Positions 7,818 through 26,587 of a stretch of 43,697 nucleotides of DNA are shown here, piece after piece (the first letter of the stretch is position 1; every line of letters begins with the position of its first letter). This DNA comes from a virus. The position numbers and the translations under genes were made by a program. The stretch is taken from the IMG/VR virus record IMGVR_UViG_3300032308_001717, positions 1 to 43,697 of that record. One strand, 5' to 3'. The notes under the pieces were generated by a model. The model ran no database searches. It was not told where the DNA came from and saw nothing but the letters and a program-made list of their open reading frames with translations.

Positions 7818-8633
7818 ATGTCTAATTTTAGGTCGATAGTCATTAAGTGCAAAGGGGCCGGCACCCTCGCCCTGGACGCGATCACTCCCCTGCAGGGTCG
7901 TTTTAAAATACTCACCGACGACAACAGGAAACGCCTATGTCGAGAGATCATGGTCGACGGGTACCTAGAGCCGATTTCCGTATGGGAGGACGCCACCTCG
8001 GCGAAAATCTACATTCTTAACGGACACCAGCGGCGCGAGGCTCTGCTGTGGCTGAGGGATCATGGGTGGACTGACGATGATGGTGTGCACTGGAACGTAA
8101 AGATACCCCAGCTGCCGGTAAACTATGTCGACGCAAAGGACCTGGCCGAGGCGAAGCGCAACGTACTGGCTCTCGCTAGTCAGTATGGATCGGTCAGCAC
8201 TCAGGGCCTACGCTCCCTAGTCGAGGAGCTCGGGATCACCCACGAGGACCTCGCCAGCCAGTTCAATTTTCCGGAGATCGATATAGCCGCCCTCATGTCG
8301 GGTCTAGAGGTGCCGGCCATGATCGGTATGGACTTTGAGACGAATCCGCGGCTCACCGACCGCGACATCACGACCATCGGCCCTACGACTGTAAAGAACA
8401 CCACTCCCCAGGAGATGCCGGCGCTAAACACTGGAGACCGCGAGCCGTACCAGCAGAAAGCGTTTCACTTGCACGACGAGCAGGTGGCCATAGTGGACGA
8501 AGCGATGGCACTCGCCATAGAGCTGTTCGGCGCAGAGGCGACCGACTCGGATCTCACTGAAAACAAAAACTCGAACACGCTGGCTTTCATCTGCCAGAAA
8601 TTTATTGACGAGAACTCGGGCGATGAAAGCTAA
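7818..8633 (+). CDS. ParB/Srx-fold protein linked to Mom
   Basis: 271 residues. Residues 18-110 show the ParB N-terminal (ParB/sulfiredoxin) fold: ITPLQGRFK, a LTDDNRKRLCREIMVDGYLEPISVW stretch, and the signature GHQRREAL at 69-76. The C-terminal half is unassigned. There is no ParA partner, so chromosome-type partition is unlikely. Phage ParB-like domains often sit beside DNA-modification genes and may act as nucleotide-dependent DNA-binding or nuclease modules. It overlaps the Mom-like gene by 11 bp and is probably co-translated with it. GAGGCGG lies upstream of the ATG. Confidence 0.75.
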   Translation: MSNFRSIVIKCKGAGTLALDAITPLQGRFKILTDDNRKRLCREIMVDGYLEPISVWEDATSAKIYILNGHQRREALLWLRDHGWTDDDGVHWNVKIPQLPVNYVDAKDLAEAKRNVLALASQYGSVSTQGLRSLVEELGITHEDLASQFNFPEIDIAALMSGLEVPAMIGMDFETNPRLTDRDITTIGPTTVKNTTPQEMPALNTGDREPYQQKAFHLHDEQVAIVDEAMALAIELFGAEATDSDLTENKNSNTLAFICQKFIDENSGDES

Positions 8634-9429
8634 AGACATGCAGGTGCGGATCATCGGCAGGCCCGATGCCGTCGCCTTCATAAAGAAATGGCACTACTCC
8701 GGCAAAGTGGATCCGCGCTCACAACTCCATTTCGGCGTTTTCTTCGAGGATAAACTGTACGGGGTACTGCAGTACGGCCCGAGTGTGGACAAGCGCAAGA
8801 TGCTGCCCCTGCTCCCGGGCATGGGGTGGAACGATTTCCTAGAGCTCAATCGGCTGGCACTCCACCCATCGGCACCGAAAAACAGTGAGAGCCGGGCCAT
8901 CGGGATCACTCTCCGGATGATCCGCAAGGCCTACCCAAACATGAAGATGATCATCAGCTTTGCAGACGGGACTCAGTGTGGCGACGGTACGATCTACCGC
9001 GCCGCTGGCTTCCACCTGACTCAAATCAAAAAGAACACATCGATGATCCAGATGGCCAACGGAGATGTCCACTGCAAGCTGGTGTTCACGCTCCACTCGT
9101 CAGGAGGTCTGCAGCGTCGACTCGGCAAGTCGCCAGGCGAGTCGCTAAAAGCGTTTATGGATCGGGTGGGGGCGAAGGCGATACCAGGGTTCCAGCTCAG
9201 GTACATCAAAATCCTGGACCCTGCGTGGGAGGATCGGCGCGGCTTTCAGGTCCTGCCGTATTCTGAGATAGACCGGGTGGGAGCTGGTATGTATCTTGGA
9301 AAGCAGAGACATCGCGCGCCGGAAGCAGAAGCCTCAATGCGCCCCGCTTCCAGTGGGGAGATAGGCGGTTCGAGTCCGACCCCGGCGCTCCACCTACCTC
9401 AGGCAGGTGAGGACATCATCAATAAGTAG
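8623..9429 (+). CDS. mom-like: Mom-like DNA adenine modification enzyme (GNAT fold)
   Basis: 268 residues. The body (1-228) resembles phage Mu Mom and its many phage relatives: KKWHYSG (21-27), FGVFFEDKLYGVLQYG, ELNRLAL (74-80), ISFADGTQCGDGTIYRAAGF (111-130), and a closing LPYSEIDRVGAGMYLG. Mom converts adenine in phage DNA to an N6-acetamido form that blocks host restriction; the donor has long been unclear. ATG 8623 is chosen over 8605 because of its coupling overlap with the ParB-like gene. From codon 232 the frame runs through a tRNA-Gly-like element, and these last residues (Pro, Ala, Ser, Gly-rich) look like read-through of the RNA gene rather than a protein fold. Confidence 0.8.
   Translation: MKAKDMQVRIIGRPDAVAFIKKWHYSGKVDPRSQLHFGVFFEDKLYGVLQYGPSVDKRKMLPLLPGMGWNDFLELNRLALHPSAPKNSESRAIGITLRMIRKAYPNMKMIISFADGTQCGDGTIYRAAGFHLTQIKKNTSMIQMANGDVHCKLVFTLHSSGGLQRRLGKSPGESLKAFMDRVGAKAIPGFQLRYIKILDPAWEDRRGFQVLPYSEIDRVGAGMYLGKQRHRAPEAEASMRPASSGEIGGSSPTPALHLPQAGEDIINK
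9316..9392 (+). tRNA. tRNA-Gly(UCC)-like element inside the 3' end of the mom-like gene
   Basis: 77 nt fold as a complete tRNA. The acceptor stem is GCGCCGG (9316-9322) with CCGGCGC (9382-9388), perfect. A 3-bp D stem GCA/TGC (9325-9327, 9338-9340) follows. The anticodon stem is CCCCG/TGGGG with loop CTTCCAG (9347-9353), giving anticodon TCC. The T arm is GGCGG (9364-9368), loop TTCGAGT, CCG then CC with one bulged A (9379). T73 and an encoded CCA (9390-9392) complete it. Glycine identity elements known from E. coli (G1-C72, C2-G71, G3-C70, U73, C35, C36) are all present. Odd features are A instead of U8, no G18-G19 in the D loop (C-T instead), and the T-stem bulge. It may be a charged but non-translational tRNA, or a decayed one. 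Confidence 0.75.
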
Positions 9430-9618
9430 TTTGTTTTTCCGATCCGAGGCCAGCAGGTGATCGCGCACGCTGATGGTCCACTCGTCAGGAGACTCGCACT
9501 CATGGGCGCTTAAAAAGGCGGAGATCGAGAGCCGATCCGCCGCCGTCAGTTTTTTGTTGATCACCGGGCCATAGAAAGCATCCGACCGGAGCTGGAGGTA
9601 TCGATCTTTGCGGGTCAT
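9394..9618 (-). CDS. Small hypothetical protein (74 aa)
   Basis: 74 residues, charged and helical, no recognised family. The ATG overlaps the stop of the 91-aa gene upstream, so it is the third gene of the leftward regulatory operon. Its 3' end lies opposite the last 36 bp of the mom-like gene and stops 2 nt from the tRNA-like element, so the convergent transcripts overlap. Confidence 0.6.
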   Translation of the reverse strand: MTRKDRYLQLRSDAFYGPVINKKLTAADRLSISAFLSAHECESPDEWTISVRDHLLASDRKNKLLIDDVLTCLR

Positions 9619-9890
9619 GCGGCCAGGTCCTTAAAGTGAGCACGTATCATCTTTAGAGCGATTTTCTTTTCGGCATCGGTGAGACGCCACATCAGGTGGT
9701 CGATATTGTCGAGGGCGAACTCCTCCGCAGCACGCGGGAGCTGTCGTTTAGACACCCCGACTTTCAGCATCTCGCTAAGGTACTCGTCCCCTGCGTAGAC
9801 GCTGGCCTCGCGCACGACGGCGTTGACAAAGACATTCTCGACGTGCTTCTGGTCCAGAAATATATTTGGTTTTGGTTGCTTTTTCGCCAT
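9615..9890 (-). CDS. Small hypothetical protein (91 aa)
   Basis: 91 residues, mostly helical, with a basic N-terminus (MAKKQPKPN) and a central acidic/hydrophobic helical stretch. No family recognised. It starts 3 nt after the stop of the XRE-type gene and overlaps the next gene by 4 bp. Likely an accessory of the regulator (anti-repressor or partner), which is inference from operon position. Confidence 0.6.
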   Translation of the reverse strand: MAKKQPKPNIFLDQKHVENVFVNAVVREASVYAGDEYLSEMLKVGVSKRQLPRAAEEFALDNIDHLMWRLTDAEKKIALKMIRAHFKDLAA

Positions 9891-9893
9891 GGG

Positions 9894-10190
9894 CTACGCT
9901 CCCTTTTTCTTTTTCGACTTGGCTGCTTTTTCGGCACGCTCTGCGCGGTATTTTGCATAGAAAGCCTTACCGACTTTATTTCTGGCCTCGATCGCCTCCT
10001 CCAGCTTCGTCTTAGGGATGCCTAAAACTATGGCAAGGTTTTCACGTAGCCGGTCACTCACTATGGTGCGTGGGTTCGACTGTAGGTGACGGGCATAGTT
10101 TTCCGAGCAGTCAATCTCTTTTGCGAGTTTTTCGATAGACACGTCGCGCGTCTCGCGGGCCTCGGCGATCAGTTTTCCTAGTTTATCCAT
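9894..10190 (-). CDS. XRE-type helix-turn-helix regulator
   Basis: 98 residues. Residues about 3-65 read as a lambda-repressor/XRE domain: LIAEARETRDVSIEKLAKEI, the turn DCSENYARHLQ, then a run typical of the third to fifth helices ending VLGIPKTKLEE. A very basic Lys-rich tail (85-98) may bind DNA or RNA. AGGAGG precedes the ATG. It leads a leftward three-gene operon and lies between the two regions carrying the CTCA-N4-CGAG dyad, so it is the best candidate to bind them. Whether it represses early genes or lysogeny functions is unknown. Confidence 0.75.
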   Translation of the reverse strand: MDKLGKLIAEARETRDVSIEKLAKEIDCSENYARHLQSNPRTIVSDRLRENLAIVLGIPKTKLEEAIEARNKVGKAFYAKYRAERAEKAAKSKKKKGA

Positions 10191-10267
10191 ACTGGTAGTA
10201 CCTCCTGGGGTTTGTTGTCTCCATTATGAGGCACCATGTCATATAAAGAAAGCCCAAAAGGTTTTAG

Positions 10268-10305
10268 GTATCTGTTTGATACAGCTCAGTTTTTCTGGGT
10301 AGTTT
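10268..10305 (+). promoter_or_regulatory. Dyad and candidate promoter upstream of the structured region
   Basis: GTATC-TGTTT-GATAC is a perfect 5-bp dyad at about 10268-10282. TTGATA (10276-10281, one mismatch to a -35) overlaps its right arm, and TAGTTT (10300-10305) is 18 bp downstream as a modest -10. Rightward transcription from here would start near 10312 and enter the hairpin-rich region. The dyad also lies upstream of the leftward XRE operon and could serve as its operator. Confidence 0.35.
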
Positions 10306-10311
10306 GTGGTC

Positions 10312-10790
10312 AGAAGGGCGATCCCCCTCCTAGATGAGCTTGGCGGCTTTCGGAGGGGGACGTGCTGATGAGACAGGTCCACACTATCGGACCCACGCCA
10401 CCCTGGCAAGAACCCTCATCATATAAAGCTGCCGAATCCACATGTCCGGGACCGTAAAGCAGACCATCCACTGGGGGGCCCAGCGGGCAGGGGGGGCGAC
10501 GTGTCCGGTGATGCCGCGACAGCATCCTATCTCGATTAAATGTCGCGGCTATATGCACGACTGGCAGCCGACCGATCAAGGCGCCAGCGGGAGGCCCGCT
10601 CATGTGGAGCACCATAGGTACTCAGCGAAACACGCCAGATTCGAATGTAGTTGAGTACAGGCTAAGCCAAAGCGTTTTAAACGTGTCCATGGATTGGACG
10701 GCGATAGCTACAGCTATGTGCAAAACTGGGGGCTCCTCCCCCAGTGCCCCCGGTGCCGGCCATCTCCTGATGTCCCGGCCCTGCAGAAAA
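10312..10790 (+). ncRNA. Candidate large structured noncoding RNA
   Basis: About 480 nt with no convincing ORF but many perfect helices: TCCCCCTCC/GGAGGGGGA (10322-10330 with 10352-10360); TGATGAG/CTCATCA (10366-10372 with 10415-10421) enclosing GGTCC/GGACC and GCCA/TGGC; CTGGG/CCCAG (10471-10483); GATGC/GCATC with its loop paired downstream (10510-10548); CTGGC/GCCAG (10561-10587); AGCGGG/CCCGCT (10586-10600); GTACTCA/TGAGTAC (10618-10658); GTCCA/TGGAC (10684-10698); ACTGGGGG/CCCCCAGT (10725-10745); CATC/GATG (10761-10772). Phages carry large ornate RNAs such as GOLLD and ROOL; this is not recognisably either. The strand is inferred from the upstream promoter-like site and is uncertain. Confidence 0.5.
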
Positions 10791-10792
10791 GC

Positions 10793-10825
10793 TTGGACTC
10801 TGTCTCAGGATCGAGACTATATGAT
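10793..10825 (+). promoter_or_regulatory. Putative rightward early promoter with third dyad operator
   Basis: TTGGAC (10793-10798) is a -35-like box. GTCTC-AGGATC-GAGAC (10802-10817) repeats the operator seen at 7745-7760, with core CTCA-N4-CGAG at 10804-10815. TATATG (10818-10823) or TATGAT (10820-10825) could be the -10 with a long spacer. The dyad lying between the two boxes suits repression by occlusion. It precedes the recombination operon that begins at 10932. Confidence 0.55.
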
Positions 10826-10833
10826 ACCTGCGA

Positions 10834-10923
10834 AGCGTGACCTTCAAACTAAAATTTAAATCAGCCGGTCTCAGGGAATCATTGGTCACGCTCTGTCCCT
10901 GGGGCCGTGCTTCCTTTCGGAGG
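10834..10923 (+). promoter_or_regulatory. Structured 5' leader with ribosome-binding-site hairpin
   Basis: AGCGTGACC (10834-10842) pairs perfectly with GGTCACGCT (10884-10892), a 9-bp helix closing a 41-nt AT-rich loop. Just downstream CTTCC (10910-10914) pairs with GGAGG (10919-10923), which is the ribosome-binding site of the gene at 10932, through a TTTC loop. The leader could limit translation until something opens it. Structures are read by eye. Confidence 0.45.
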
Positions 10924-10931
10924 AGATAGCT

Positions 10932-11156
10932 ATGGCGGAGATCGGTATACCAATAGATCAGGAAACCGTCCTGACTACGAGAATTCAGGAGCTGGAGAAG
11001 AAAGTATCCGTACTAGAGCATGACAACCGGAGAGATCGAGCAGCACTGACCGCTAAGCAGTTAGAGCTCGACAAAATTAATTATGCTTGGGAGCGAGCCG
11101 AGGAGGTCTTTATGACTGTCCTTGATCGTCTTTTGGAAAAACTGGACGACCGATGA
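10932..11156 (+). CDS. Small coiled-coil protein (74 aa)
   Basis: 74 residues. Residues 12-55 form a long charged heptad region (RIQELEKKVSVLEHD...), so a coiled coil is likely. It begins the rightward operon with a GGAGGAG ribosome-binding site that is itself in a hairpin, and overlaps the next start by 4 bp. No family recognised; oligomeric regulatory or scaffold roles are possible. Confidence 0.65.
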   Translation: MAEIGIPIDQETVLTTRIQELEKKVSVLEHDNRRDRAALTAKQLELDKINYAWERAEEVFMTVLDRLLEKLDDR

Positions 11157-11368
11157 GCCAGGATTTCTTTGAGTGTGTGAAATGCGGACATCCTTACGGA
11201 CCTGATGACGAGCGCCACGAGTACATCGATGGCTACGTTTGTCAGGGATGCTATGAGGGTATGGCCGAGGATCAAGAGGAGCGTCAGCGCGAAAATGGGC
11301 CCGCGATCCCGTACTACGAGTTGCCACGCTTATCAATTAATAAAGGAGAATCGTATGCAACAAGTTAG
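11153..11368 (+). CDS. Small zinc-binding protein
   Basis: 71 residues with CVKCGHPY and CQGCYEG, two CxxC pairs about 20 residues apart, giving a zinc ribbon. Coupled to the preceding gene by an ATGA overlap and overlapping the next gene by 14 bp. The C-terminus is acidic and polar. Role unknown, possibly a DNA- or RNA-binding accessory to the recombination genes. Confidence 0.65.
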   Translation: MSQDFFECVKCGHPYGPDDERHEYIDGYVCQGCYEGMAEDQEERQRENGPAIPYYELPRLSINKGESYATS

Positions 11369-12314
11369 TGAGTCCGACGGTAGACCATTCGAGCCGCGCG
11401 ATTTGATCGTGCCGCCCGACTATAAGAACCACTGGCGTCCGGATCAGACCGAGGATGAGTACCACGCCGACAAATCAGCCATCGGATCGAGCAGCCTGCG
11501 CCTAGCACTCTCGTCACCCAAAGCGTTTTTCGAGGGACATTTCAAAGGCCGACAGCAGAAGGTCACAAATGACATGGAGCTGGGGCGGATCATCCACATG
11601 GCTCTGCTGGAGGGTGAAAAATTTAAAAATCGCTATGTCGTAATGCCTGAATTTCTGGGCCCGACGCTCGACGGAAAGATGAGTGCCCAGTCAAAGTCGG
11701 CCAAAGAAAAGCGCGCCGCATGGCTGGCCGACCGGAGGCCGGAGGAGGTCGTAGTCACTGAGGATCAACTAGAGATGATTACCGGGCAGATCGAGAGTGT
11801 ATCGCAGCATCCTCAGGGATGGGGAGTCTTCGCACATGGAGTGACCGAGCAGTCCGGGTACTACCGCGATCCGCGCACTGGTCTGCTGATGAAAATCAAA
11901 CCCGATTTCCGGGGCCACGACCTCTTCCTGATCACCGATTTCAAAACGGCTCAGTCATGTGACGCGAAGCTGTTCGGTGCCAAAGCGTTTGGCGCACTCC
12001 GCTATGACATCCAGGTGTGGATGTATGCCTACGGGACCGGACTGATCGAGGGCTGTCCGATGCCTGAGAACCTGTTTTTTATGGTGGTGGAGAAGACATG
12101 GCCCTATGAGTCAGCGGTCTACTTCATGACCGACGAGCAGAAAAACCAGGCGAGATATGACTACCAAAAGGCGCAGGATCGCGTGATTCAAGGGATCGAG
12201 TCCGGCCAGTGGCCACAGCGGCAGACTAAAATGGAGCCACTATGGACTCCCAGATTCTTTATCGATAACGACGTGGAGATGCACGAGAAGGAGCTAGACG
12301 ATGCAGGTATTTGA
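11355..12314 (+). CDS. RecE-like PDDEXK exonuclease
   Basis: 319 residues. The RecE/Cas4-type nuclease signature is present: SSSLRLALSSPKAF (45-58), GRIIHMALLEG with His81, IKPDFRG with Asp184, and ITDFKTA with Asp195 and Lys197. Such enzymes resect one strand from DNA ends to feed a RecT annealase, which is encoded just downstream. The start at 11355 follows AAAGGAGAA; a longer in-frame ORF has no fitting start. About half the size of E. coli RecE but equal to its catalytic part. Confidence 0.85.
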   Translation: MQQVSESDGRPFEPRDLIVPPDYKNHWRPDQTEDEYHADKSAIGSSSLRLALSSPKAFFEGHFKGRQQKVTNDMELGRIIHMALLEGEKFKNRYVVMPEFLGPTLDGKMSAQSKSAKEKRAAWLADRRPEEVVVTEDQLEMITGQIESVSQHPQGWGVFAHGVTEQSGYYRDPRTGLLMKIKPDFRGHDLFLITDFKTAQSCDAKLFGAKAFGALRYDIQVWMYAYGTGLIEGCPMPENLFFMVVEKTWPYESAVYFMTDEQKNQARYDYQKAQDRVIQGIESGQWPQRQTKMEPLWTPRFFIDNDVEMHEKELDDAGI

Positions 12315-16134: not shown

Positions 16135-16313
16135 TTTTGAAACATACCCAGGAAGAGGCCGAGTTGTGGCGGATTCATGCTCTGCAACTCGCAGCGACAC
16201 TGCGCGCAGTGATCGAGAATGTCCCCGAGGGGCACCCGATCCGAAAAACTCTTCAGGCCTCTCTCGATAGATTCAATCAGTTTTACGGGCCCATGGTGAA
16301 TAATGAGCGATGA
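16131..16313 (+). CDS. Small helical protein (60 aa)
   Basis: 60 residues, one or two amphipathic helices (HTQEEAELWRIHALQLAATLRAVIENV). The start is coupled to the preceding gene by an ATGA overlap; the longer frame is not used. No family recognised. Confidence 0.5.
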   Translation: MILKHTQEEAELWRIHALQLAATLRAVIENVPEGHPIRKTLQASLDRFNQFYGPMVNNER

Positions 16314-17289
16314 AAAGTTCCACGTAGAACAACTGAAGGTGCCCATGGTCGAGGTTCCTGCTCGTCAGATTCCGGGCCTACGGTACTCACTCGCGATTAA
16401 AGCCGGGGTGAAGCAAATTATGATGACCACCTGGGGTGGACTCGGCGATCAGGTCTGCGCCGAACCCACTCTGCGCTATGCGGCAAAGTTGTTCGATGGG
16501 TACGATATTTGCCTTATGACGAGTTATCCACAGCTTTTTACACACATAAAGTTCAAAAAGGTTTTTACTAAGGGGGATCTCGCGGTCTTGTCCGACGATG
16601 ACTGGCTAGTCCTGCACACCTATATGCCTCCCCACAATATGGGTGGGGAGTTCGTAGTGCACCACTACACGCAAGCAGTAGATGCGGCGTCCCTATACGC
16701 CTTTCAGCGCCAGCTTCCGGTACAGGACCGCGAGATCAGTCTACCAGGCGCGCCCCTCACATTTCGACAGCCGGACATTGTGATCCACCCGGGCAGACAC
16801 TGGCCCTCAAATACATTTCCAAAGCACTGGTGGAGCGAGGTCATCGCGAGGATCGCGAGCTCTGGAGTAACCGTGGGCATCGTAGGCAAGGATGTGAGTG
16901 AGGATATAGGGACGGTCGACGTTGACCTACCGAAAAACTGTCTCGATCTGCGCAACCGACTATCTCTCGAAGAGCTGGTGTCAGTGCTCCAGATGACTAG
17001 AGTAGTACTGACCAACGACTCGGCACCGCTCCACATCGCGGCATCAGGCTGGGCCAAGATTCTTTTCCTGGCCGGTGCGAAGCATCCGGACTACATCACG
17101 CACTGGCGTAATGGAGTTTTCGGTGCACGCATGGAAAATCTGACCACCGGAGGTCTGTGGGACTCTCAGGAATCGAGCCCGGCCCGAGAGACGCCGCTAT
17201 CTGTGGACGCCATGGACCCGAGTGAGTACGACCGCATCCTGCCGACGCCGGCCCATGTGGCTGGTCGAGCACTGGACTCCCTCAGATGA
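16303..17289 (+). CDS. GT9-like glycosyltransferase (heptosyltransferase family)
   Basis: 328 residues resembling ADP-heptose:LPS heptosyltransferases and related GT9 enzymes. GGLGDQVCAEPTLRYA (45-60) matches the GxGDxV acceptor-side loop; the C-terminal domain has DIVIHPGRHWP and TNDSAPLHIAASG, the classic donor-site motif with a TNDS/GP.H. pattern. No membrane segment. In a phage it may glycosylate LPS to exclude rivals, modify DNA or decorate a virion protein. Overlaps both neighbours, so it is a genuine operon member. Confidence 0.8.
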   Translation: MSDEKFHVEQLKVPMVEVPARQIPGLRYSLAIKAGVKQIMMTTWGGLGDQVCAEPTLRYAAKLFDGYDICLMTSYPQLFTHIKFKKVFTKGDLAVLSDDDWLVLHTYMPPHNMGGEFVVHHYTQAVDAASLYAFQRQLPVQDREISLPGAPLTFRQPDIVIHPGRHWPSNTFPKHWWSEVIARIASSGVTVGIVGKDVSEDIGTVDVDLPKNCLDLRNRLSLEELVSVLQMTRVVLTNDSAPLHIAASGWAKILFLAGAKHPDYITHWRNGVFGARMENLTTGGLWDSQESSPARETPLSVDAMDPSEYDRILPTPAHVAGRALDSLR

Positions 17290-21600: not shown

Positions 21601-22064
21601 ACTCCTTCCCAAGGATTACTGCGACAGGATTTTACAATTCACCAATTTTAAGAATGCGCGGAACTCGCGTCCGCTATGTTCAGACATTTGCAGGGACTAC
21701 TTGCACGAGAGCAATCAACCGCTCGCAGATCAGTCATGCTGCAAGCCAGATAGTGCAGATAATTGATCGAACGATTGTACCGAACACTTTGAATTCAGTT
21801 AGCCCGTCACTACTAATCGAAGGCTGTCAGGATTTTAACGCATCGGTTCGCTGTACGGCTCAGACGACTCCTGCAACGATTTTAATTCAGTTCTCTGCTG
21901 ATGGCACAAACTGGTTCTCTTCTGCGGCTTCGATCACGACCGCGGTGGGAATCGTTCAAGCCAAGATTGCGAACGAACAATGGAAATTTGCCCGCTTAAT
22001 TGTCTCCGCCGCTGGTTCAGGTATTACTTTGGGCGAAGCGATGATCACAGGAAACGGAAGGTAG
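18660..22064 (+). CDS. Large tail fibre / adhesin
   Basis: 1134 residues, the longest protein in the window. The N-terminus carries two near-identical units, about 53-96 and 121-164 (68 residues apart), sharing LPLP.GAATQ.TLAALLAELELKADLTQTQPVSGP. Beta-rich modules follow, including two similar 'TVSLTSNVATINFSTSHGLVNGDRV' and 'SKTGTTTATVTTDVAHGLAVTDFV' blocks and Thr/Val repeats near 900. No enzymatic motif seen. AGGAGAG precedes the ATG. From about base 19560 onward codon choice looks less GC-rich than in neighbouring genes, consistent with a swapped receptor-binding part. Confidence 0.75.
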   Translation: MADNISVTQGSGTTMATDDVSGVQYPRVKVSVGVDGAATDVSTSNPMPVEAASLPLPTGAATQTTLAALLAELELKADLTQTQPVSGPLTDAQLRAAAVPVSGPLTDAQLRAAAILVSASALPLPAGAATQATLAALLAELELKADLTQTQPVSGPVTDAQIRATPLPISGNVNTGLTQPLTDTELRASPVPVLGEKEVVTGVTQNTVDTNIIESTDVSDYSMMSLQILGPFTAQINFQGSNDNTNWVPVIMQRTDSANSSPASTTTNPAGYVSPVLFKYFRARITSYTDGDVTGILSLTQGSIDFPGQIQIAAAMLPNGTGGATAANQNTQTTALQILDDVVGAVGAVAPTSVQAMGLVDPDGNSIQAPSTENGALAIGNAVKKFRDGFADLPQGDPPDTLIWDVAFENQGSSSIGRAGNAQGASYMKLSLCPITPGSQISMTTKRTFKFPMRFINLLSISQRIIGQELEVSIVGVDGSDVVTQLTPKADLSILGTVSLTSNVATINFSTSHGLVNGDRVILVGNTERRLNVGPVVVTILTATSITVPLALANGTYTAGGVVRWADPLAYAKNGAGLLHENATATNATFLTRRNGFNTRLLNQTIVTTANGTNLAFSDPFNATSMNQVIANQEEFTIVPRSPDAITAPGNPMKWSQTLPDEELEFKIRVRAKNLDNLTVPIARITAISKTGTTTATVTTDVAHGLAVTDFVQIYGVRDIVSFPNLTASTVVASIVSPTQFTIIIGAALTVSSAGGTVFLNQGSVLAPGISAINVQSISRTNNVLTLIGNTNWAVGLPGETVHLYGCDATSMGLYDGAYKVLRLSTTTMDLESVGADFGSINCGGAIMRRTDLRVHGISEIEHTRLIAELSAQQGSADNGKALPVNIPGGTVINSGTVTTVSTVTTVTTVAAVTAANLALPGTIADVASAALTTTTTTAAITPTFGTAYQVNIPVTVFTATSLDINIEESTDNGTNWFVVYSFPRITATGFYNSPILRMRGTRVRYVQTFAGTTCTRAINRSQISHAASQIVQIIDRTIVPNTLNSVSPSLLIEGCQDFNASVRCTAQTTPATILIQFSADGTNWFSSAASITTAVGIVQAKIANEQWKFARLIVSAAGSGITLGEAMITGNGR

Positions 22065-22066
22065 TA

Positions 22067-22276
22067 ATGGAATTCCAAATTTTTAGAAAGACCGTCGACG
22101 AAGCCGGAAATATCGGTTTCGTTTTTGACGAAGACTTCGAAGGCACCGAGGAGGATTGCTTATCCTTTTTGGTGCTTTTAAATACCTCCGAAGGGTATGA
22201 GCACGTCGCAGAAATAAAAAACTGCGGTGGGTGTCGATTGATTTCGGCCCCAGAGTTTTATTCGGGTGACGGGTGA
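22067..22276 (+). CDS. Small acidic protein after the fibre (69 aa)
   Basis: 69 residues, acidic, with a GFVFDEDFEGTEEDCLSFL stretch. No family recognised. GGAAGG precedes ATG 22067. Its position right after the large fibre suggests a fibre chaperone or assembly partner, which is inference. Base usage resembles the distal part of the fibre gene. Confidence 0.5.
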   Translation: MEFQIFRKTVDEAGNIGFVFDEDFEGTEEDCLSFLVLLNTSEGYEHVAEIKNCGGCRLISAPEFYSGDG

Positions 22277-22812
22277 GCCACACCTGGCTGGCAAACTTTC
22301 CTTTGCCGCCATCCGTCAACGAGTATCTGATGCCGGTGGCGGGACAGTGGGCTGTTTCGAAGGCCGGCAAATCATACCGCAAGGGGCGGTTCGTAAAAAC
22401 AAAGCTCCATGTACAGTACCTAAACCGCTGTCAGATCTGGCGCGCACAGAACAGCGAGGCATTCGATAAAATAAAATCGGAGCTTCTGCGACTGCAGGCC
22501 CAAGCTCAGGCCAATGGGCAGCCATTCGCCCTCAGGGTAGACTGCTATTTTGCTTTTGAGCATTCGAGACTATGGAGCAAGGCCGGGGAGGCGAAGTCTT
22601 TGGATTCTGACAACCGACTCAAGCCCTGCCGAGATGCCTTGGCCAAACTGCTTTCAATTGACGATAAGTACTTTTTTAGCGGATTCTTTGAAAAAGTCTC
22701 TACCCACTCAAAGGATTTAGAGTGTGCATACCTGAAGATCAGCCTGATGACACCCCGATCACTGACAAACCTGAAAGATCAGATACGACAGGAAACGAGC
22801 CTGGCTACTTAG
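22273..22812 (+). CDS. rusA: RusA-type Holliday junction resolvase
   Basis: 179 residues from a GTG overlapping the previous TGA. The RusA signature is present: LPPSVNEYL at the start, then SLDSDNRLKPCRDAL (Asp111, Asp113, Asn114, Lys117, Asp121) and a SIDDKYF stretch (Asp130, Asp131). The enzyme resolves four-way junctions formed in replication and recombination before packaging, and works with the exonuclease/RecT pair. Length is somewhat above the 120-residue E. coli protein. Confidence 0.85.
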   Translation: MSHTWLANFPLPPSVNEYLMPVAGQWAVSKAGKSYRKGRFVKTKLHVQYLNRCQIWRAQNSEAFDKIKSELLRLQAQAQANGQPFALRVDCYFAFEHSRLWSKAGEAKSLDSDNRLKPCRDALAKLLSIDDKYFFSGFFEKVSTHSKDLECAYLKISLMTPRSLTNLKDQIRQETSLAT

Positions 22813-24456: not shown

Positions 24457-24737
24457 TGATCGTAGGCGTAGCGTTTTACAACCCGGAGACTCAAATGCTG
24501 GTCACGATGCCAAAGCCAAATCGACATAGCGACATCATCGGAAACCTCCATGCAATATCTGGTAAGCAGGTCGGCTCTCCGTGGAAACAGGGCTTCGTGA
24601 CGGACCAGGGTGAGTTTTTGAATCGGAACGAAGCTGCGCGCTATGTCGTCCGTGTAGGTCAAACGCTTACCCAGTACGCCCGTGACGAGTATATGACCCG
24701 GACTCTGACAACCCTGTACAGTGAGGACCTCTGGTGA
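24456..24737 (+). CDS. Hypothetical protein (93 aa)
   Basis: 93 residues (MIVGVAFYNPETQMLVTMPKPNRHSD...), reminiscent of small phage proteins with a 'GFVTDQGEFLNRNEAARYV' stretch seen in uncharacterised NUDIX-adjacent or capsid-neighbour families, but not assignable. Stop/start overlap on both sides. Confidence 0.5.
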   Translation: MIVGVAFYNPETQMLVTMPKPNRHSDIIGNLHAISGKQVGSPWKQGFVTDQGEFLNRNEAARYVVRVGQTLTQYARDEYMTRTLTTLYSEDLW

Positions 24738-25507
24738 AGCGCCCAGTGCTTAGATATTTCGGTGGCAAGTATCTGCTGGCTCCGTGGATCGTGAGTCACT
24801 TCCCCGCGCATCGCGTGTATGTCGAGCCTTTCGCTGGAGCGGCATCGGTCCTCATGCGCAAAGAGCGGTCCAAAGTAGAGGTCTGGAATGACCTTGATGA
24901 TTCGGTGTATCATCTTTTCAAACTGCTGCGTGACGGTCGGGGCCCAGAGCTGGAGCAGGCCCTCCGGCTCACGCCCTACAGCCGCAGAGAGTTCGAGCTG
25001 TCCGGCTCGCCACATCCTGACCCACTAGAGAGTGCCCGTCGCCTCATAATCAGATCATTCATGGGGTTCGGTGGGGATGCTGTCGGCAGCGCGAGCACCG
25101 GCTTTAGGTCGTGCTCGAATCAGTCGAACCGTGCGCCGGCCCTAGACTGGATCAACTACCCAGCCGCGATTCAGGGGTTTATCGGCAGGCTGCAGGGGGT
25201 CGTCATCGAGAACAAAAATGCGTTCGAGGTGATGTGGCAGCACGACTCTGACACCACGCTTCACTATGTGGATCCGCCGTACCACCCGGAGGCGCGCTCG
25301 AAGCGCCAGCGGTACAAGCACGAGATGTTCGACCACGACGAGCTGCTGGCGAAACTGCCGGCCCTCAAGGGGAAGGTGATCCTCAGCGGGTACCACTGCC
25401 CGACGTACGATCGATGGGCCGAGCATCATGGTTGGAGATCCGTGGAGCGTTCTGCCCGAGCTGATGGCGCGAAGAAAACCACCGAGGTCCTATGGATGAA
25501 CTTTTAG
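24734..25507 (+). CDS. D12-class N6-adenine DNA methyltransferase
   Basis: 257 residues from a GTG overlapping the previous TGA. FGGK (9-12), EPFAGAASV (31-39) and DPPY (180-183) are the SAM-binding and catalytic motifs of Dam-type D12 methylases in canonical order. The product would methylate adenine, perhaps in GATC, as protection from host restriction or to regulate transcription. Specificity cannot be read from sequence. Confidence 0.9.
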   Translation: MKRPVLRYFGGKYLLAPWIVSHFPAHRVYVEPFAGAASVLMRKERSKVEVWNDLDDSVYHLFKLLRDGRGPELEQALRLTPYSRREFELSGSPHPDPLESARRLIIRSFMGFGGDAVGSASTGFRSCSNQSNRAPALDWINYPAAIQGFIGRLQGVVIENKNAFEVMWQHDSDTTLHYVDPPYHPEARSKRQRYKHEMFDHDELLAKLPALKGKVILSGYHCPTYDRWAEHHGWRSVERSARADGAKKTTEVLWMNF

Positions 25508-25830
25508 GGGATAAATTATGCGATAGATGCGGTTCCATGATGACCCGTAAGAGGTACGGGAAGCGCCTAGAAGATGCTGGAGTTTTCAGAAAGCGTCGCT
25601 TCTGTTCTCTGTCGTGTGCGAACAAACGTGGGAACTGGGGAAGCTCGAGCGCGGCGAGGCATAGGGCGTCTCAAAAATTTCGCAGGGATTACTGTGAAGA
25701 ATGTGGGCAGAAGGATCACCTGCACGTTCACCACGTCGACGAGAACCATCACAATAATGACCCGAGCAACTTAAAAACCCTATGTCCACGATGCCACAAA
25801 CTAGCTCACATGGAGGTGCGCAATGCATGA
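25492..25830 (+). CDS. HNH endonuclease with zinc sites
   Basis: 112 residues. N-terminal CDRCG and CSLSCANKRG form one zinc site. DYCEECG, HVHHVDENHHNND, and LCPRCHKLAH form the HNH core with its own zinc pairs. It overlaps the methylase by 16 bp. HNH proteins near terL often assist cos-type packaging or are homing nucleases; its colocation with a methylase could also mimic a restriction pair. Confidence 0.82.
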   Translation: MDELLGDKLCDRCGSMMTRKRYGKRLEDAGVFRKRRFCSLSCANKRGNWGSSSAARHRASQKFRRDYCEECGQKDHLHVHHVDENHHNNDPSNLKTLCPRCHKLAHMEVRNA

Positions 25831-26587
25831 GTCAGAGGTGGACACATATCCAAGGTGGCCACGTCAGGGGCAGGTCATCGGGTGGTGGTCTGCCGGAGTG
25901 ACGTCTGCCGTGGCGATCAAGATGGCGCTCGACTCCGGGCTGCGAGTGGTACCTATCTATTTCGATACCGGATCATCTCACCCCGACAACGCGAGGTTTC
26001 TGGCCGACTGCGAGCGATGGTACGGTACCCAGATCATAACTTTTAAGCACCCCAGATATACCGACGTCATGGACGTAGTACGCAAAGAGCGATACCTCAA
26101 CGGGCCCAGCGGAGCCAAATGCACTGGAGTCCTGAAAAAAGAGGTCCGGCAGGCCATAGAGCGGTGGATGCCATACGACGCGCAGATATTTGGGTTTGAG
26201 TTTGAAAAGAAGGAGATGGCCCGGGCTGTCCGATTCGTGGAGCAGTACCCGACGGCTAAGGCGACGTTCCCGCTGATCGACCGCCAGCTCACGAAGGCAA
26301 ACTGCCTCTATCTCCTGGAGTCCGCTGGCATCGCAAAACCAGCCATGTACACGCAGGGCTACCACAACAACAACTGCATCGGATGCGTCAAAGGTGGGAT
26401 GGGGTACTGGAATAAAATCAGAGTCGACTACCCGGCAGTCTTCGATGAGATGGCGAAGGCGGAGCGGGACATCGGCCACAGCTGTATCAAAGGAGTGTAC
26501 CTCGATACTCTCGAATCTGACCGTGGGCACTACCCGACAGAGATTACTCCCGAGTGTGGAGTTTTCTGCCCGGTGGAGGAGCCATAG
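25823..26587 (+). CDS. PAPS-reductase-family protein
   Basis: 254 residues. The PP-loop is WSAGVTSAV (22-30, SxGxxS form). A GAKCTGVLKKEV stretch, NNNCIGCVKGGMGYW and a C-terminal VFCPVEEP provide a four-Cys set as in iron-sulfur PAPS/APS reductase relatives. Phage members of this family are common and are linked to sulfur transfer or nucleotide thiolation rather than assimilation. It sits between HNH and terL, near methylase and ParB/Mom genes, so a DNA modification role is possible but unproved. Confidence 0.75.
   Translation: MHESEVDTYPRWPRQGQVIGWWSAGVTSAVAIKMALDSGLRVVPIYFDTGSSHPDNARFLADCERWYGTQIITFKHPRYTDVMDVVRKERYLNGPSGAKCTGVLKKEVRQAIERWMPYDAQIFGFEFEKKEMARAVRFVEQYPTAKATFPLIDRQLTKANCLYLLESAGIAKPAMYTQGYHNNNCIGCVKGGMGYWNKIRVDYPAVFDEMAKAERDIGHSCIKGVYLDTLESDRGHYPTEITPECGVFCPVEEP

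Follow-up and report, generated by a model that had tools for sequence, protein, structure and literature searches.

We propose, at a probability of roughly 40%, that the longest intergenic gap of an apparently complete phage genome (positions 10191-10931, 741 nt) is the structured leader of an early rightward transcript. The gap, than which the genome has no larger, separates a leftward operon headed by an XRE-type regulator gene from a rightward operon that includes RecE-like and RecT-like genes. This tentative reading is favoured by the noncoding character of the gap, its excess of long stems, a lean towards the + strand, a 12-bp stem with G-U pairs, the absence of an internal terminator on the + strand and the position and orientation between divergent operons. 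Against it stand a weak strand difference over the whole region, a 3' part that is not stable, the lack of a sigma-70-type promoter upstream, the failure to find a homologue, and coding windows of the same genome that fold nearly as well.

The window, by which we mean the whole 43.7-kb stretch of DNA analysed, is IMG/VR record IMGVR_UViG_3300032308_001717. Since its first 123 bases are identical to its last 123 (a 123-bp terminal repeat), it looks like a complete phage genome of ~43.6 kb to be read circularly. It encodes a contractile-tailed phage gene set (terminase, portal, major head protein, tail sheath, baseplate proteins and endolysin), together with RecE-like, RecT-like and RusA-like resolvase genes. 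Among named phages, Burkholderia phage BgManors32 has the most similar terminase (56%); the nearest IMG/VR record by terminase is 75% identical, and the phage is only distantly related to any sequence compared. This one genome also encodes a Mom-family protein (8605-9429), a DNA methyltransferase (24734-25507) and a phosphoadenosine phosphosulfate reductase family protein (25823-26587), a combination suggesting that the phage DNA may be modified. The Mom-family ORF is overlapped at its 3' end by a tRNA-Gly(UCC)-like gene (9315-9392, + strand), whose acceptor stem has 7 bp (GCGCCGG/CCGGCGC) and whose CCA end is encoded. The Rfam tRNA model gives 9316-9388 a score of 25.6 bits, below the cut-off of 29, and ARAGORN makes no call; this is possibly a decayed tRNA.

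On its left, the gap is bordered by the XRE-type transcriptional regulator (9894-10190, - strand; phrog_2439 transcriptional regulator, E 2.5e-5), which heads the leftward operon 9394-10190. On its right lies the first early gene (10932-11156, + strand; coding score +0.14), whose 74-aa product had no known family and no homologue in our searches, followed by the RecE-like exonuclease VIII gene (11355-12314, + strand; phrog_412, E 2.3e-51; PF12684). A 91-aa protein of the region likewise had no relative in these searches. An earlier note had singled out 10312-10790 as hairpin-rich and free of any credible gene. The latter point holds on the gene map, the gap list and the six-frame scores: sliding coding scores are negative in all frames from ~10200 to 10750, and coding signal resumes only close to the 74-aa gene. 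Per-codon scores are -0.08 to -0.12 for ORFs within the gap, +0.09 to +0.28 for the yardstick of 19 training genes and, for adjoining genes, +0.05 to +0.23; none of the ORFs in the gap has a convincing match in Pfam or PHROG (best E 0.61), so that coding scores, Pfam and PHROG reveal no conserved ORF across the region. The natural limits of the structured part are wider than those first drawn, at ~10285-10931. Exact-word matches to coding DNA (e.g. L063, L074, L064-L072) do fall in the frame of a 70-aa ORF, as would be expected if the gap were the remnant of a protein gene. We regard this as very improbable, and disfavour it: the proteins that share these words are unrelated, every frame has a negative codon score, no family is recognised, and tblastn of the 70-aa ORF returns only matches at E 9.

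No relative of the region was found by blastn against phages and plasmids, by searching IMG/VR for two exact 18-19-base words of it, by comparison with 299 bacterial genomes (from the family of the Hydrogenophaga strain that carries a terminase relative), or among all loci gathered in this analysis. The short-word matches that did turn up are counted as chance, because they are located inside unrelated coding genes. A covariance model built from the single sequence of 10316-10430 matched only itself. The terminase search yielded 33 IMG/VR loci, one Hydrogenophaga contig and three Acinetobacter contigs; from such relatives a host in the Burkholderiales may be guessed. The nearest complete relative, a phage of 42,187 nt (G001), has the late genes in common at 56-75% (terminase 75% identical) and an exonuclease gene at 58%; the genes upstream of the latter are different and there is no comparable gap.

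The claim of at least ten perfect helices in 10312-10790 is borne out in part, the excess over chance being confined to long stems. With loops of <=60 nt, this segment has 23 perfect Watson-Crick stems of at least 5 bp and seven of at least 6 bp, compared with 22.7 and 6.5 in shuffles. Five stems reach at least 7 bp against a shuffle mean of 1.56, a number attained by 21 of 1000 shuffles; the three stems of at least 8 bp and the two of at least 9 bp are each equalled in 5/1000. Over 10285-10931 there are six stems of at least 7 bp, four of at least 8 bp and three of at least 9 bp, matched by 10, 0 and 0 of 1000 shuffles, respectively, and among 181 genome windows only that of the hairpin region had five stems of at least 7 bp.

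Folding energies, expressed as z against dinucleotide shuffles, are -3.0 on the + strand and -2.1 on the - strand for 10312-10790, and -4.1 and -2.8 for 10285-10931. For folding energy, the genome's own windows are a fairer yardstick than shuffles: across 79 windows of 552 nt the mean z is -0.46 (sd 1.11) and the region scores -2.85 in the same run, in which several mostly coding windows reach -2.2 to -2.8 and window 22081 reaches -4.0. In 240-nt windows the hairpin region attains just -1.8 and -2.7. The folding signal of the region is thus real but moderate, ranking high among the windows of this genome and not standing apart from them. Its 3' part folds no more stably than shuffled sequence (z -1.06 for 10790-10931; -0.44 for 10790-10960). 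The strongest-folding stretch of the genome lies elsewhere, at 22067-22276 (+ strand; z -6.9 in the 240-nt window 22081, -4.4 for 22060-22285), and includes an 18-bp hairpin at ~22139-22179 inside a 69-aa ORF without a convincing family match. The 240-nt window 16561 also folds strongly, on both strands.

These comparisons bear on the view that the gap is unconstrained or decaying sequence, its long stems being a modest chance excess in GC-rich DNA that was picked out by eye. Stems of at least 7 bp have a p of only about 0.02 within 10312-10790, a region chosen for its hairpins, and no excess is seen among short stems. Similar folding z values occur in coding windows, and the nearest relative phage lacks the region. 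We nonetheless hold such an origin to be unlikely, as phages seldom carry 740 nt of noncoding filler in their genomes, no shuffle matched the stems of at least 8 bp in 10285-10931, and no other of the 181 windows had five long stems.

The most robust elements, all given here for the + strand, are local hairpins. A 9-bp perfect stem, TCCCCCTCC/GGAGGGGGA, closes a hairpin at 10322-10360 (pairing probability 1.0), and a second 9-bp perfect stem, GCCGCGACA/TGTCGCGGC, closes one at 10513-10549 (0.99 on either strand). A branched module at 10613-10718 is closed by CATAG/CTATG and has an inner 9-bp stem, GTACTCAGC/GTTGAGTAC, with one G-U pair (stem probability 0.99-1.0). Complementarity and folding further point to hairpins at 10725-10779, formed by ACTGGGGG/CCCCCAGT (or alternatively ACTGGGGGC/GCCCCCGGT) and by GCCGG..CCGGC; that these are an intrinsic terminator was ruled out, as no T run follows them. 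Between the first two hairpins, a possible three-way junction at 10366-10421 consists of a 7-bp stem, TGATGAG/CTCATCA, enclosing GGTCC/GGACC and GCCA/TGGC, and is uncertain because it loses to other pairings in the longer fold of 10285-10931. A CTGATGA motif at 10364 raised the possibility of a hammerhead ribozyme, which was rejected: the core GAAA is misplaced and Rfam gives no match.

Towards the 3' end, a 12-bp stem, CGGTCTCAGGGA/TCCCTGGGGCCG, pairs 10866-10877 with 10896-10907 (probability 1.0), and a 9-bp perfect stem recognised by complementarity, AGCGTGACC/GGTCACGCT, pairs 10834-10842 with 10884-10892. The two would be mutually exclusive or would form a pseudoknot, since the latter crosses or excludes the former. 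Downstream of both, a small hairpin with a TCCT/AGGA stem is predicted at 10910-10923 (probability 0.84) over the GGAGG ribosome-binding site of gene 10932. Two exact 10-base repeats occur in the gap, TCATATAAAG at 10239-10248 and 10419-10428, and CTTTCGGAGG at 10347-10356, in the 5' hairpin, and 10914-10923, over the ribosome-binding site; arm 10322-10330 could therefore pair with either copy of CTTTCGGAGG. GGA motifs suggested a CsrA-binding RNA, a candidate rejected because by eye the motifs are not enriched.

Finally, in the fold of 10285-10931 a possible closing stem, seen in this one sequence, joins a 5' arm (TAGTTTG at 10300-10306 and GGTCA at 10308-10312) to a 3' arm (TGACC and CAAACTA, 10838-10851), with 10300-10312 predicted to pair with 10845-10851 and 10839-10842 at a probability of 0.93-0.95. 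Nine nucleotides of the 3' arm could instead pair with 10884-10892. As this stem, 10300-10312/10838-10851, would enclose the whole domain, it speaks for a free-standing large structured noncoding RNA, a new 'ornate' family with a long-range closing stem and its own role in infection. The size, noncoding nature and several robust hairpins of the region also fit, as does the tRNA-like gene 900 nt away, given that genes for the large phage RNAs GOLLD and ROOL are frequently found near tRNAs (PMC12286853). Such an RNA is nevertheless distinctly unlikely here. The region has no homologue in our searches and no promoter or terminator that would delimit it, pairing outside the best hairpins shifts with the length of sequence folded, the folding energy is unexceptional for this genome, and a single tRNA-like gene that ARAGORN does not accept is no tRNA island. 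That it represents a new class of large phage RNA, ~550-650 nt in size and expressed early from between the repressor operon and the recombination genes, we consider improbable.

The strand of a putative transcript was addressed with five modules chosen by perfect complementarity, a strand-neutral property, after which the folds of both strands were compared. Module 10316-10430 has a z of about -3.4 to -4.1 on the + strand and -1.4 to -1.6 on the - strand, module 10610-10720 has -2.7 and -0.9, and module 10860-10931 has -2.2 and -1.1. The strands are about equal for modules 10508-10555 and 10720-10790 (one pair of z values being -3.6 on + vs -3.0 on -); if that small difference is counted, the + strand leads in four of the five modules. 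In stem 10866-10907, two of the 12 pairs are G-U and possible only in RNA of the + strand. Taken over its full length, the region shows a weak difference between strands (z about -1.1 to -1.2), and loop composition, with A-rich loops as a strand clue, equals that of shuffles and is uninformative. Taken as a lean and not as proof, these values mildly favour a rightward (+ strand) RNA.

Signals for transcription are sparse. A scan of 10191-10931 for sigma-70-type promoters found none (promoters of the host may be of another type), and no U-run intrinsic terminator was found on the + strand in 10301-10931. There is a weak terminator-like site at 10284-10300, and the totals of the promoter and terminator scans are at chance expectation. 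A palindrome, GTATC-N5-GATAC, at 10268-10282 is the sole exact match in the genome and is a possible operator of the XRE protein, a candidacy suggested by sequence; similar palindromes occur once per 700 nt, about as expected by chance.

The same inverted repeats could be protein-binding sites if the gap acted as DNA, either as an origin of replication or as a dense regulatory region. The gap, being the largest in the genome and lying between divergent operons, is a usual place for such an element; perfect inverted repeats are identical whichever strand is read, and the - strand, too, beats shuffles. Yet the gap has no iterons or tandem repeats in our searches and its repeated words are few and short; it has one exact DnaA-box-like site, at 10717, in a genome where the total is at chance, and the cumulative GC skew does not turn within the gap. 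DNA-level roles, which we judge to be on the unlikely side, thus have less support than the leader reading. Elsewhere, gene 16303-17289 contains a pair of exact DnaA-box-like sites, TTATCCACA and TTTTACACA, set 12 bases apart at 16524-16544 (+ strand). A mobile element was also considered for imperfect 10-nt inverted repeats at 10288-10297/10784-10793 and rejected, as no target duplication is seen by eye.

For the structured leader that we prefer, we infer transcription of the gap, its strand and its start from gene arrangement and predicted folding, and the steps would be as follows. Transcription may start near the putative XRE operator, at about 10200-10300. The transcript would cross ~600 nt of hairpins in which it meets no intrinsic terminator, and go on to cover gene 10932 as well as the RecE/RecT genes. 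It is as RNA that the hairpins would act, the bulk of them perhaps keeping RNA polymerase going or protecting the message, and the last ones (10866-10907, the competing 10834-10892, and 10910-10923) may control whether the first early gene is translated. Should the region prove to be transcribed and folded, phages would have one more large RNA beside the few already known, and its position at the start of the early genes would make an effect on transcription or translation directly measurable. If not, the lesson is that in GC-rich phage DNA counting hairpins by eye exaggerates structure, unless shuffles and the genome's coding windows serve as yardsticks.

The earlier note saw no resemblance to GOLLD or ROOL, and Rfam covariance models agree: the whole window has no match at gathering score, and no ROOL or GOLLD match appears at E <=5 in 9250-11000. 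The matches at E <=5 are chance or sub-threshold ones, namely archaeal sR32 at 10317-10370, MEG8_3 and the tRNA-like stretch 9316-9388. Known ornate RNAs were established by covariation across many sequences, and GOLLD and ROOL are defined by ordered multimers as well (PMC12286853). The region is similar to these in being large, hairpin-rich, noncoding and phage-borne, with a tRNA-like gene ~900 nt off; unlike them, it is known from one sequence and lacks a covariance-model match, homologues and a tRNA island, and it is not known to covary or to form multimers. In phage HK022, RNA itself can modify RNA polymerase through put RNA antitermination (PMC6256539). As with put, a structured RNA would be expected at the start of the early transcript, beside the immunity region. 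Put sites are short, about 70 nt, whereas our region spans ~600 nt and matches no family in Rfam, and nothing that we found ties it to HK022 put RNAs. Because GOLLD and ROOL are unmatched and a link to HK022 put is lacking, our reading is of an ordinary kind of region, namely structured intergenic or leader sequence of a phage; the chance that it is a new large RNA is small. Leaders that hide a ribosome-binding site offer a further comparison. Unlike these, the gap has no ligand, conserved aptamer or relatives and its 3' part is not significantly stable, but it shares with them a predicted hairpin over the GGAGG that precedes the ATG at 10932, with alternative stems upstream.
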